Source: Thalassotalea nanhaiensis
Lineage (GTDB): Bacteria; Pseudomonadota; Gammaproteobacteria; Enterobacterales; Alteromonadaceae
Direction: 5' to 3'
Assembly (NCBI RefSeq): GCF_031583575.1
Contig: NZ_CP134146.1
Coordinates: forward strand, 2,170,001 to 2,234,000
DNA: 64,000 nt
Below the pieces are notes generated by a model, which made no database searches, was not told the origin of the DNA, and saw nothing but the letters and a program-made list of their open reading frames with translations. This document shows positions 18,029 through 35,020 of the stretch, piece by piece. A program made the position numbers and the translations under genes. Every line of letters begins with the position of its first letter. The first letter of the stretch is position 1.

Positions 18029-18195
18029 ACTTCAGGGATGAAGGAATGCCAAGCTTACATGGATGTTTAAAGGTTGGTTCACTTCAGGGAAGAAGTAATG
18101 TCAATTTACCATGGATGGTTTGAAATTGACTTCAGGGATGAAGTAATGTCAATTTGCCATGGACGGTATGAAATTGACTTCAGGGCTGAAGTATT
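18029..18195 (+). repeat. Tandem hairpin repeat, locus A (about 3.5 units of 48-52 bp)
   Basis: Units start at 18029, 18081, 18129 and 18177 (the last is partial). Each has a small hairpin CTTCA-GGGA-TGAAG, the linker (G/T)AATG, then a longer hairpin. In units 2 and 3 the long hairpin has arms GTCAATTT/AAATTGAC and a centre CCATGG-A-(T/C)GG; in unit 1 the arms are CCAAGCTT/AAAGGTTGG with centre ACATGGATGT. Arm sequences differ while pairing is kept. The related arrays at 22752 and 34700 share the design. Confidence 0.85.
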
Positions 18196-18200
18196 GCCTA

Positions 18201-18665
18201 TTAGGTAATATGTTGAAAGCTTGCGTTTAGTAATGAACGAAGATCCTGTGGAGCAAGTTCAATTTCTAAGCCTCTTTTTCCGGCGCTAACAAAAATAGTT
18301 TTATGAGATGTAGCACTTTCATCAATAATGGACGCTAATATACGTTTTTGACCTAAAGGACTCACGCCACCTAACACGTAGCCTGAACTTCGTTCTACAA
18401 GTTTAGGCTCTGCCATTGTAACCTTTTTTGAATGGCAGGCTTTGGCAAAAAGCTTTAAGTTTAACTTTTGTTCAACGGGTACAATCGCGACAAACAGTGT
18501 TTTTTGTTCATTTATAACAACTAACGTTTTGAACACCCTACTTGCTTCAACGTTTAGCTTTTCTACCGCCTCCAACCCATAAGACACAACAGATTCATCA
18601 TGGCTATATTGATGAACGATATGATTAATCTTATGTTTTTTTGCAAGGTTTATAGCAGGTGTCAT
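18201..18665 (-). CDS. ybaK: Cys-tRNA(Pro)/Cys-tRNA(Cys) deacylase YbaK-like
   Basis: An editing enzyme that hydrolyses misacylated Cys-tRNA(Pro). The ATG at 18665 gives 154 residues starting MTPAINLAKKHKINH, which aligns with the E. coli YbaK start; an upstream GTG adds only four residues. The key lysine region VFKTLVV and the GGVSPLGQK and SAGKRGLEIELAP signatures of the YbaK/ProX superfamily are present. It starts 2 bases after the stop of the nitroreductase gene, so the two are probably co-transcribed. Confidence 0.95.
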   Translation of the reverse strand: MTPAINLAKKHKINHIVHQYSHDESVVSYGLEAVEKLNVEASRVFKTLVVINEQKTLFVAIVPVEQKLNLKLFAKACHSKKVTMAEPKLVERSSGYVLGGVSPLGQKRILASIIDESATSHKTIFVSAGKRGLEIELAPQDLRSLLNASFQHIT

Positions 18666-18667
18666 TC

Positions 18668-19219
18668 TTACTGCCACTGCTCGATGAAGTGCTCTGCTGC
18701 TTTTCTTGGCTTGTTAGGCAGTTCTTTGCTTTTGGAACCAATGTATATAAATCCTACGATATCATTATCTTCAGAAATGCCAAGACCTTGCTTTACGATA
18801 TTACTATACGCGACATCACCAGTGCGCCACATAGCACCGTAGCCTAGAGCTGTACTGGCCATTTGTATTGCATGCGCCGCACAACCGGCAGTAACTAATT
18901 GCTCTTGTTTTGGCACTTTCGCATGTTGTTTATAATAAGTGGAAACCACGATAAGTAATGGCGCGCGGTAAGCCATTTTCTCAGCTTTTGCTATTTTAAC
19001 CGGGTCATCAGTAACTGACTTTATTGCTTCTACATAGTAATTAGTTAACTTTGTTAAACCATCACCTTGTATTTGATGAAATTTATAAGGATTTAACCCT
19101 GCATGATCAGGCACAGCGATAGCAGTGGTGAAAATAGCGTTTAGTTGGTCTGCTGAAGGCGCAGGAGATGTTAAGAAGCCGTTCGACTGTCTTGTTGCTA
19201 AAAATTCTATTGGGGACAT
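18668..19219 (-). CDS. Nitroreductase family protein, YdjA-like
   Basis: A small FMN-dependent nitroreductase of 183 residues, the same length as E. coli YdjA. FLATRQSNGFLTSPAPSADQL at the N-terminus, the catalytic-region AVPDHAGLNPYKFHQI, SAGCA-like TAGCAAHAIQMA and GYGAMWRTG all fit the YdjA subgroup. The physiological substrate of this subgroup is not known. First gene of a two-gene unit with ybaK. Confidence 0.9.
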   Translation of the reverse strand: MSPIEFLATRQSNGFLTSPAPSADQLNAIFTTAIAVPDHAGLNPYKFHQIQGDGLTKLTNYYVEAIKSVTDDPVKIAKAEKMAYRAPLLIVVSTYYKQHAKVPKQEQLVTAGCAAHAIQMASTALGYGAMWRTGDVAYSNIVKQGLGISEDNDIVGFIYIGSKSKELPNKPRKAAEHFIEQWQ

Positions 19220-19339
19220 AATGTAAATTAAAATAAAAGTGTATGCCTTAAATTAACATGAAACTTATGAGCAAGTCACTTCATGTAAAGGATTCAAGGC
19301 GTTTTGAAGGCCTGAAATAAAACTCAGACCCATAATTGT

Positions 19340-20035
19340 TTAATCGATTTGTTTCAAGTCATCTTCTTCGGGTTTAAAAAGCCAGTAATCTAAACTCACG
19401 TATCTACCAGCACCAATAAAAAACAATGCTAATAACATAATAAAATAAGTGGCCGCGAATTCTATGCCATTATTAAGTAATACCACATTACCTTTTTCGT
19501 AAAGCCATTCCGGATTGCCATTCTCATCAACAATGTCCCTGATCTTACTTAACCTAATACTTGCTTCTTCACTATTCTTTAGGCTGTTATCGGCAGTTTC
19601 AAAACCAACCCAAGAAAAAACTTGAGCTGAGCTAGTAGATGAATTTGTAGGAGTTATAGCGTACCAACCATTATCAAGATGAACCGTTGTTGCTGCGACA
19701 ATCATAGTAAACATTAACGGAATACTAAGTAAGCGTGTTGCTAAGCCGATTAAAATTAACCAACCACCAAAGAATTCAGTCCATGCCGCAAGATTGGCCA
19801 ATAATTCTGGGAACGGTAATCCTAAGCCCCATTCGGAGTTTCCAAACCATTGAGCAATTTCTGGTTTAACCATGATTTGTTCTAAAAGACCAAGTTCGTC
19901 ATTACTTAATTGCATTTTATTGTAACCAGCAATTATAAAAACTGGCGCTAAAAAAACTCTTAAGAGTAAAGCAGGAATAGCATCTAGCTTTAATAACTTA
20001 TCAACGACCGTGTTATATAAATTTATAATATTCAT
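19340..20035 (-). CDS. DoxX family membrane protein, HvfX-like
   Basis: A 231-residue protein starting at the ATG at 20035 (MNIINLYNTVVDKLL). Four membrane helices carry the DoxX pattern: RVFLAPVFIIAGYNKM, AAWTEFFGGWLILIGLATRLLSIPLMF and NGIEFAATYFIMLLALFF. Between helices 3 and 4 is a periplasmic-type insert of about 80 residues, making it longer than ordinary DoxX (about 140) and like the HvfX proteins linked to copper-binding peptide (bufferin) systems. No precursor peptide or MNIO maturase gene is nearby, so the function here is open. Confidence 0.8.
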   Translation of the reverse strand: MNIINLYNTVVDKLLKLDAIPALLLRVFLAPVFIIAGYNKMQLSNDELGLLEQIMVKPEIAQWFGNSEWGLGLPFPELLANLAAWTEFFGGWLILIGLATRLLSIPLMFTMIVAATTVHLDNGWYAITPTNSSTSSAQVFSWVGFETADNSLKNSEEASIRLSKIRDIVDENGNPEWLYEKGNVVLLNNGIEFAATYFIMLLALFFIGAGRYVSLDYWLFKPEEDDLKQID

Positions 20036-20246
20036 AATTGTCCTTAAATTAGTTTTAATATTGTTTTCAATAACTAATAAGAACATTGTAGTTCAAATAA
20101 AATTTCGTACATTATTTGAATGGAGCTTTTATGTCAATTATCGATTAATTGTAAATATTTCTTAATATAGCTTAGATAACAAAGATCTTTTATTAATTGC
20201 GTTGTATATTAAGGTTATAAAAATATTCATTAAGACGTGAGGATAT

Positions 20247-33406: not shown

Positions 33407-33557
33407 TTAAAATATTATCCATTTATTCAATGATTTTTATTAACCCACGTATTTTGCCATAGATAGCTTCATTTTGTAATGTTTACAAACTAATTAAGAT
33501 AAAATCTAATAAAACTACACAAAAACACAAATAAAGCTTGATATTTCGCTCAAATGT

Positions 33558-33572
33558 TGTAATTTTACTACA
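33558..33572. promoter_or_regulatory. Putative HexR site before gapA
   Basis: TGTAATTTTACTACA matches 12 of 15 positions of the HexR palindrome TGTAATTAAATTACA known from Shewanella and relatives. It lies 26 bases before the gapA ATG. A second inverted repeat, TTGTAA-TGT-TTACAA at 33474-33488, lies in the same gnd/gapA region. Confidence 0.55.
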
Positions 33573-33598
33573 TTATATTTTCCATAAGGATTTTAAGC

Positions 33599-34627
33599 AT
33601 GAAAAAGATTGCAATCAATGGTTTTGGCCGCATTGGTCGATTAGTATTTAGAGCTGCTGCAGAGCGAAATGACGTAGAAGTAGTAGCAATCAATGATTTA
33701 ATAGACATAGATTATATGGCTTACATGCTTAAATATGATTCAACTCATGGTCGTTTTAACGGTACTGTTGAAGTCTCTGGTAATGCTTTAATTGTAAATG
33801 GTAAATCAGTACGGATTACAGCAGAACGTAACCCAGAAAACTTAAAGTGGAATGAAGTTGGCGCTGAAATAGTTGTTGAATCAACTGGTTTGTTTTTAAC
33901 TGATGAAACAGCTCGTAAACACATTGCAGCAGGAGCGAAAAAAGTAATTTTATCTGCCCCTTCTAAAGATGCTACCCCAATGTTTGTTTCTGGTGTTAAC
34001 TTTGATGAGTACCAAGGTGAGGACATTGTTTCTAACGCTTCATGTACAACAAACTGTTTAGCGCCATTAGCCAAAGTTATCAATGACAAATTCGGTATTG
34101 AAAACGGTTTGATGACTACAGTACATGCTGCAACTGCAACCCAGAAAACAGTAGACGCTCCAAGCGCTAAAGACTGGCGCGGCGGCCGTGGTGCTGGCCA
34201 AAACATCATTCCTTCATCTACGGGAGCGGCAAAAGCTGTTGGTCGAGTTATTCCTGAACTAAATGGAAAACTTACTGGTATGGCGTTCAGAGTACCAACT
34301 CCAGATGTTTCTGTAGTCGACTTAACTATAAATCTTAAGACTTCTGCAAGTTATGAAGACATTTGTAAAGTTGTAAAAGACGCTTCAGAAGGTTCAATGA
34401 AAGGTATTTTAGGTTATACCGAAGATGCTGTTGTATCTAATGACTTTATAGGTGAATCTTGCACCAGCGTGTTTGATGCTAAAGCCGGTATTGCAATGAC
34501 TGATAAATTCGTAAAACTAGTGGCTTGGTATGATAATGAAATGGGCTATTCAAATAAGGTGCTCGATCTAGCTGCTCATATGTTTGCTTATGAGGAAGCT
34601 GTAAACCCAAAGCGATTGGCTAGCTAA
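33599..34627 (+). CDS. gapA: Glyceraldehyde-3-phosphate dehydrogenase, type I
   Basis: A glycolytic enzyme that makes 1,3-bisphosphoglycerate with NAD. The 342-residue protein starts [20 protein letters not shown]; the catalytic cysteine is C149 in [12 protein letters not shown], with the His in [11 protein letters not shown] and the C-terminal [15 protein letters not shown]. It is followed by a terminator and the six-copy 53-bp repeat array. A putative HexR site precedes it. Confidence 0.98.
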
Positions 34628-34673
34628 TTTAAACCAGTGCTATTTAGTTAGCTATAAAAATGTCTGAATATTG

Positions 34674-34699
34674 AAAGGAGCTTTTAAGCTCCTTTTTTT
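34674..34699 (+). terminator. gapA terminator
   Basis: Stem AAAGGAGCTT/AAGCTCCTTT with a 2-base loop followed by seven T residues. The 53-bp repeat array starts at the next base. Confidence 0.9.
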
Positions 34700-35020
34700 A
34701 CATCAGGGATGATGGAATGTCGACTTGCCAAGGATGGCAATAAAGTCGACTCACTTCAGGGATGATGGAATGTCGACTTGCCAAGGATGGCAATAAAGTC
34801 GACTCACTTCAGGGGTGATGGAATGTCGACTTGCCAAGGATGGCAATAAAGTCGACTCACTTCAGGGGTGATGGAATGTCGACTTGCCAAGGATGGCAAT
34901 AAAGTCGACTCACTTCAGGGATGATGGAATGTCGACTTGCCAAGGATGGCAATAAAGTCGACTCACTTTAGGGATGATGGAATGTCGACTTAACAAGGAT
35001 GGCATTAAGTCAACCCACTT
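34700..35020 (+). repeat. Tandem hairpin repeat, locus C (six 53-bp units)
   Basis: Units are in exact 53-bp register (TCAGGG at 34703, 34756, 34809, 34862, 34915; TTAGGG at 34968). Each has a small hairpin around TCA-GGGA-TGA, the linker GAATG, then a long hairpin with arms GTCGACTT/AAGTCGAC around GCCAAGGATGGC. Units 3 and 4 share a GGGGTG variant; unit 6 is diverged. The gap from 35021 to 35101 holds nothing else recognisable. Confidence 0.92.

Follow-up and report, generated by a model that had tools for sequence, protein, structure and literature searches.

Three hairpin arrays directly downstream of intrinsic terminators

The 64,000-nucleotide stretch of the Thalassotalea nanhaiensis chromosome examined here (the window; NZ_CP134146.1, positions 2,170,001 to 2,234,000) contains three arrays of a short two-hairpin repeat, all on the forward strand, and each starts at the first base after the T-tract of an intrinsic terminator (18029, 22754 and 34700). 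They belong to a high-copy, extragenic family whose members appear to insert behind terminators and whose loops resemble binding sites for CsrA, a global RNA regulator. The genes concerned are named as in the initial annotation of this DNA. Downstream of asnS, the terminator occupies 18002-18028 (a hairpin followed by T9, with the T-tract at 18020-18028) and array 1 occupies 18029-18195, comprising three units and a partial fourth that consists of hairpin A only; its CANGGANG loops lie at 18033, 18058, 18085, 18110, 18133 and 18158, with a degenerate CAGGGCTG at 18181. Behind a SnoaL-like gene, the terminator spans 22727-22753 (T-tract 22748-22753) and array 2 spans 22754-22835, with one unit and a second hairpin A with its linker (loops at 22757, 22783 and 22809). 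The annotation had rightly tied this array to the terminator end and had placed its start two bases early, at 22752. The third array (34700-35018), behind the gapA terminator (34676-34699, T-tract 34693-34699), is made of six 53-bp units with GTCGACTT arms. Tandem Repeats Finder reports a period of 48 for array 1 and of 53 for array 3, and the exact CANGGANG loop is present at 6 of 7, 3 of 3 and 9 of 12 positions in arrays 1, 2 and 3, respectively. Four other strict terminators in the window (22166, 26307, 29825 and 57773) carry no array, as annotated; two of them, 26307 and 29825, are oriented along the minus strand.

In each unit, which is about 50 bp long, hairpin A (for example CTTCAGGGATGAAG) comes first, then a linker, then hairpin B. 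Hairpin B combines variable outer arms with an inner NCCANGGATGGN stem-loop and a bulge of 2-4 nt on the 3′ side; the linker ends in ATG in most units, and the loops are spaced 23-28 nt apart. When six units were folded as RNA (five from the window and one from an array next to galU, L001, the latter taken from a shortened stretch in which one end paired differently), the hairpins formed as described, with z-scores of -1.8 to -4.5 against shuffled sequences. The arms of the long hairpin differ among loci and pair inside each locus, as had been proposed, with one G.G mismatch in the CCAAGCTT arm of the first asnS unit.

A repeat family with conserved structure

A covariance model built from four window units (R1) was searched against the 4.31-Mb chromosome, as the initial annotation had suggested, and the family was found throughout, with at least 150 units in at least 93 clusters. 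Both values are lower bounds because only 150 of the 1582 R1 candidates were scored; the galU array lies outside the 150 R1 matches listed. A broader model, R2, was built from 150 of 163 matches, leaving 13 that were not aligned. Array 2 scores 27.6 bits with R1 and 50.6 bits with R2, whose training matches include it. After 21 incomplete rows were dropped from the 150 aligned, 129 full units were left, in which the commonest linkers are GAATGC (58), TAACTT (21) and GAATGT (15). Extrapolation from twenty 20-kb stretches, which contain 9 array-bearing terminators per 400 kb, gives about 97 such terminators per genome.

The annotation had further claimed that structure rather than sequence is kept in the stems. 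Indeed, the stem changes are compensatory: 14 of the 17 pairs in the R2 alignment have changed on both sides, a count that leans towards structure because the alignment was fitted to the model structure. In the same alignment 91.6% of cells are paired, as compared to 75.8% after shuffling and 28-45% when the partners are slid, and this contrast is large despite the structure-fitted alignment.

Related arrangements were also seen. Composite elements occur at seven loci (L063, L085, L091, L109, L114, L056 and L100), within about 150 nt past the start of the array; by eye, a reverse-oriented second two-hairpin unit appears inside the loop of hairpin B (CCATGGACCG...CGG), which places GGA loops on both strands. 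The same design recurs in a sister two-hairpin family (for example GCACATGGAAGTGC-TTATCCTCC...CCATGGATGG), which is present in L043 (about 1255-1310), in L129 (near 1660) and in L142 (near 1950 and 9570), with three cases directly behind a terminator.

Arrays start where terminators end

The link to terminators holds genome-wide. By a strict folding test, a terminator ends at hairpin A in 73 of the 93 clusters, in 68 of them at offset 0, as compared to 229 of 3720 positions drawn at random from these regions. Some clusters were missed at first because the hairpin-A pattern failed there; with a widened pattern 78 of the 93 start at a strict terminator, the random-position control having been run with the narrower pattern only. 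Among the 15 clusters without a strict terminator, L096 and L098 are preceded, by eye, by a hairpin whose T-tract is poor, and several come after a different repeat.

The converse comparison used a 464-kb sample, composed of the window and twenty evenly spaced 20-kb stretches. Here 12 of the 92 T-tracts of intergenic terminators lead into the repeat's hairpin, as does 1 of 646 intergenic T-runs that lack a terminator hairpin (p = 8.5e-11), 3 of the 12 array-bearing terminators belonging to the sister family. Since the window was chosen for its arrays, we also excluded it, and the difference persisted (9 of 77 versus 1 of 574; p = 2.7e-8); the single exception among the 574 T-runs has no hairpin of this type. 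In coding-masked sequence of the 464-kb sample, the repeat's hairpin follows 0 of 102 terminator T-tracts and 3 of 1946 other T-runs. Among gene-end terminators, 10 of 57 bear an array (window included). Similarly, in two relatives, G005 and G010, 39 of 40 high-scoring array regions start at a terminator, according to a lenient sliding test of both strands that had no control of its own.

Relatives carry the same terminators without the arrays

The intergenic regions downstream of asnS and gapA were compared by eye among relatives, and these have the terminator and lack the array. Behind asnS, all 12 relatives in which the stop codon was located (it was not in G009 and G014) have a terminator-like hairpin and T-run with no such array, and G006 has a different element-like sequence there. 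The gapA array is absent in all 13 relatives compared (G003 is not among them), and in G010 another subfamily occupies the same T-tract. Long flank matches, picked by eye, relate 13 of the 40 regions of G005 and G010 to one of our 93, leaving aside a partial match (L336/L045). Some of these pairs have a unit in common (in L062/L337 it is identical, with an overall match of 78%) and others have different units at one terminator; in one pair the array portion did not align (L048/L338), and in another the arrays do not correspond (L096/L323). In L052 the T-tract is followed by one additional unit and then by a unit of the L316 type. We read this, and the asnS and gapA terminators of relatives, as signs that the arrays arrived after the terminators.

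R2 matches 14 of 15 genus genomes, our own included, and 11 of 51 other sampled genera of the family at E <= 0.1, several of them weakly. Searches with the gapA array against plasmids and phages and with the asnS array against E. coli gave no match.

The initial annotation had offered either targeted insertion or a function for structured nucleic acid just past the termination point. The former is better supported, because the terminator occurs in relatives that lack the array and a T-run is insufficient by itself; from the position statistics we regard insertion targeted to terminators as close to established. The latter gains, from loop sequence, a candidate in the CsrA-type hexaloops described next.

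Both loops follow the rule for Csr-type binding sites

A point missing from the initial annotation is that both loops of the unit read C-A-N-G-G-A-N-G, a hexaloop seated on a stem. According to PMC4005645, the high-affinity site of CsrA and its homologue RsmE is an ANGGAX hexaloop that sits immediately on a stem and in which N and X are looped out. The repeats vary accordingly: across the 129 full units we counted 14 deviations in 1028 cases at the contact letters A, G, G and A and 170 in 515 at N and X, and both loops are intact in 105 units. Nearly the same is seen for all 150 rows (16 of 1140 versus 181 of 571) and when one unit is taken per locus (86 units; 10 of 685 versus 116 of 343). 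A Csr-type protein is suggested chiefly by this agreement of fixed and variable positions with the RsmE rule, and the motif makes a strong case that the loops are probably Csr-type sites. Across the 464-kb sample, window arrays included, 24 of 110 CAN-GGA-NG sites are carried on a stem of 4 pairs or more, versus 2.5% of the sites with one of the other 63 triplets. A single csrA gene is present in the genome, and its 64-aa product matches CsrA/RsmE structures including 2jpp, an RsmE chain; the hcnA RNA of 2jpp presumably bears a nearly identical CUUCACGGAUGAAG hairpin.

Searches for known Csr-family RNAs gave little. None of the Rfam matches over the window overlaps the arrays, the 10 matches being tRNAs and a thiamine pyrophosphate (TPP) riboswitch, and four array loci (L083, L084, L055 and L061) had no Csr-family match at E <= 1. 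Elsewhere in the genome, L192 matches CsrB weakly (20 bits, cut-off 71) and was rejected, with no clear excess of GGA (8 GGA versus 5 TCC in 700 nt).

A degenerate RAYT-like gene behind a GGA-rich leader

The only Y1_Tnp match of the genome is a gene resembling RAYT, the transposase associated with repetitive extragenic palindromic (REP) sequences. It lies at 2995038-2996220 (1041-2223 of L173), some 760 kb away from the window, and is preceded by a conserved leader in which serial GGA hairpins resemble those of CsrB/RsmZ. With 43.8 bits it stays below the NCBIfam RAYT cut-off of 80, and its predicted fold, of medium confidence (predicted local distance difference test, pLDDT, 67), is closest to 4er8, a RAYT in complex with a REP hairpin. 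The protein has TQIQ at the HUH motif and F at the catalytic Tyr. Of the 19 matched places in the genus we examined 15, which excludes three weak matches and a second fragment of one gene. Eleven of the 15 have a degenerate HUH motif, and the other 4 have HUH and Tyr intact. In the best 80 of 125 loci from named genomes, by comparison, the HUH histidines are kept except in Thalassotalea L228 and L229, and the Tyr is kept wherever aligned. From its sequence the gene looks domesticated, and its product is a poor candidate for a present mobiliser and an attractive candidate partner of the arrays.

A GGA-rich leader accompanies all 11 degenerate-HUH loci and none of the 4 intact ones. In our genome it contains 15 GGA versus 2 TCC, an excess that none of 276 leaders of control open reading frames (ORFs) attains, and its ribosome-binding site lies inside a GCAAAGGAATTGC palindrome. 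The GGA excess is above every control in 10 of the 15 leaders; the weakest of the 11, in L174, has an excess within 560 nt that 3% of controls reach, and its GGA core lies further upstream. Weak RsmZ or CsrB matches were obtained in 2 of 5 leaders searched (E 0.009 and 0.008, below the gathering score). The gene is flanked by a leader hairpin (+) upstream, which is no R2 unit, and by the galU array (-) downstream, inverted; two inverted REPs flanking a RAYT are not what is found here, and no such hairpin lies downstream of the RAYT-like gene in G010, G005, G006 or G011.

Mobile repeats that may display CsrA sites upon read-through

We favour, with a probability of roughly 50%, the reading that the arrays are a REP-like or MITE-like (miniature inverted-repeat transposable element) mobile family that inserts at terminators and whose read-through RNA would display CsrA sites. 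Units would insert, always in the same orientation, immediately behind the T-tract of a pre-existing intrinsic terminator and then be duplicated in tandem or joined by further units at the same spot. Terminator read-through would yield an RNA tail on which 2 to about 10 CsrA sites are displayed at intervals of roughly 25 nt, and CsrA would be titrated in proportion to read-through; upon normal termination the element would be silent and harmless. The family, its position, the covariation, the loop constraint and the absence at the same terminators of relatives were all obtained by sequence. CsrA binding, transcription and a mobilising enzyme are the parts that we infer. Titration by read-through RNA would be the most economical function, and it is the step that we hold least firmly.

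Several points weigh against this reading. The models that found the units themselves favour consensus loops, N and X having been searched in the same way, and any reader of ANGGAN hairpins, such as a RAYT-like protein, would leave the same loop constraint. Three of the 12 loops in the gapA array are imperfect (two CAGGGGTG, one TAGGGATG). Many sites are not common to different species, and outside the genus only 13 of 31 loci pass a lenient terminator test that used the first CANGGANG motif of each locus (8 of 11 and 5 of 20); targeting is therefore strong in the genus and patchy outside it. The 8 passing among the 11 other-genus loci are L153, L355, L356 and L358-L362, of which L153, L356, L359, L360, L361 and L362 are clear by eye. 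Read-through is probably low, and there is no excess of a second terminator that would define a small RNA (10 of 93 arrays versus 20 of 181). No intact mobilising enzyme was found, the genome having one degenerate Y1 and no RVT_1 match, with other transposase families not searched. Finally, highly expressed genes had to be rejected as special targets: array-upstream genes are more codon-biased than all 254 long ORFs (p = 1e-6) and do not exceed other terminator genes in codon bias (68 versus 45, p = 0.49).

The loop rule could instead reflect recognition of single-stranded DNA hairpins, with the elements moved as REP-like sequences by a RAYT, a Y1 HUH transposase, and the likeness to CsrA sites coincidental. 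Copy number follows the RAYT-like gene to some extent: the relatives with the closest homologues have the most units (G010, G005, G006 and G011, with 78%, 77%, 55% and 53% identity and 77, 93, 38 and 66 units), nine others have 3-16 and G009 has 0, with at most 100 candidates scored in each. This trend is confounded by kinship, however, and G013 and G001 have units with no RAYT match. The predicted fold would fit REP-hairpin binding, the units end near hairpin bases (by eye) and a short tag precedes the bulged hairpin B, yet the GTAG head is absent and the catalytic residues are degenerate in our genome, as is the HUH motif in 11 of the 15 genus loci. Nor is there a replication-strand bias beyond gene orientation (65 of 93 versus 27 of 47 terminators behind a same-strand gene; p = 0.19, or 0.09-0.26 with other terminus positions). 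A first comparison had suggested a strand preference (67 of 93 arrays versus 92 of 182 terminators co-directional, p = 0.0008) and was rejected because bidirectional terminators count on both strands, which pulls the control to 50%. On balance we consider movement by a RAYT with a coincidental CsrA likeness possible but doubtful. Mobility by a reverse transcriptase was rejected, as our genome has no RVT_1 (PF00078) match; 4 of 15 genus genomes have one.

The arrays might also spread without an enzyme, if stalled ends at terminators switch template through T-tract microhomology and copy array units. A T-tract is common to donors and acceptors, the 5′ junction is precise, the two enzyme families searched (Y1 and RVT_1) hold no intact member, and different subfamilies occupy one terminator in two species. 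The 3′ ends, on the other hand, gather by eye close to where hairpin B has its base, which would fit defined ends, and other intergenic T-runs are hardly used (1 of 574). We consider template switching improbable. Even less probable is that the hairpins act structurally in cis, as a backup terminator or 3′-end stabiliser: position and orientation after terminators and conserved stems would fit, but hairpin A leads into a linker and not a T-tract, the loop letters are constrained well beyond what a structural role requires, and only the 10 of 57 gene-end terminators noted above carry an array. Random insertion with survival only where it does no harm is already disfavoured and very improbable. 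The place just past a terminator is indeed harmless, but 68 of 93 clusters sit exactly at offset 0 although the intergenic space goes on, and the same near-absence from other T-runs stands against it.

The preferred reading, of terminator-directed repeats that may display CsrA sites, draws on features of several known systems. Like REP and bacterial interspersed mosaic elements (BIMEs) with their RAYTs, as portrayed in the available parts of PMC2817692, PMC3686654 and PMC3733652, the family is extragenic, with about a hundred copies of imperfect palindromes in tandem or composite arrays and a RAYT-like gene. It differs in that the arms vary and the loop is fixed, the sites are terminator T-tracts and the RAYT is catalytically degenerate; moreover, the GTAG-type (GT(A/G)G)/CGTC head is lacking, with GTAG in 3 and CGTC in 2 of the 129 full units. 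The word 'terminator' is absent from those parts of the three REP/RAYT texts. The serial hairpins with (A)NGGA loops recall the decoy small RNAs CsrB/CsrC and RsmY/RsmZ; unlike these, the arrays are dispersed over about 100 sites, have no Rfam match in the window and have no evident promoter or dedicated terminator of their own. In E. coli, RrA, RrB and RrF RNA past the first terminator is made by read-through and interacts with CsrA there, although these are three copies between the dual terminators of rrn operons and not a mobile repeat (PMC8144298). Group IIC introns insert after the stem-loop of intrinsic terminators (PMC7161350, citing Robart 2007); they comprise a ribozyme and a reverse transcriptase, whereas no RVT_1 match exists in our genome and a unit measures about 50 nt. 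A literature search, with most subscription papers outside it, found no report of a noncoding repeat of about 50 nt inserting after intrinsic terminators.

If the loops bind CsrA, this genome would hold some 200-300 CsrA sites exposed mainly by termination failure. Terminator efficiency would then be tied to a global regulator, an example of a mobile element rewiring one, and the factor that finds terminators could be new. More speculatively, the hairpin-binding degenerate RAYT, its GGA leader and the terminator-borne ANGGAN hairpins might form a coupled system, in which read-through titrates CsrA and releases the leader-repressed RAYT-like protein. Such coupling seems unlikely to us; if true, a selfish repeat would have become coupled to a global regulator, and intrinsic terminators would serve as its landing pads across several genera of the family.

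Further features were noted in the window. A tandem repeat at 1606-1937 (period 73, 4.5 copies) overlaps the 3′ end of a tRNA gene (1562-1635). The minus strand carries a cluster of eight tRNAs and the TPP riboswitch (52391-53366 and 50686-50818), and these two are ordinary.

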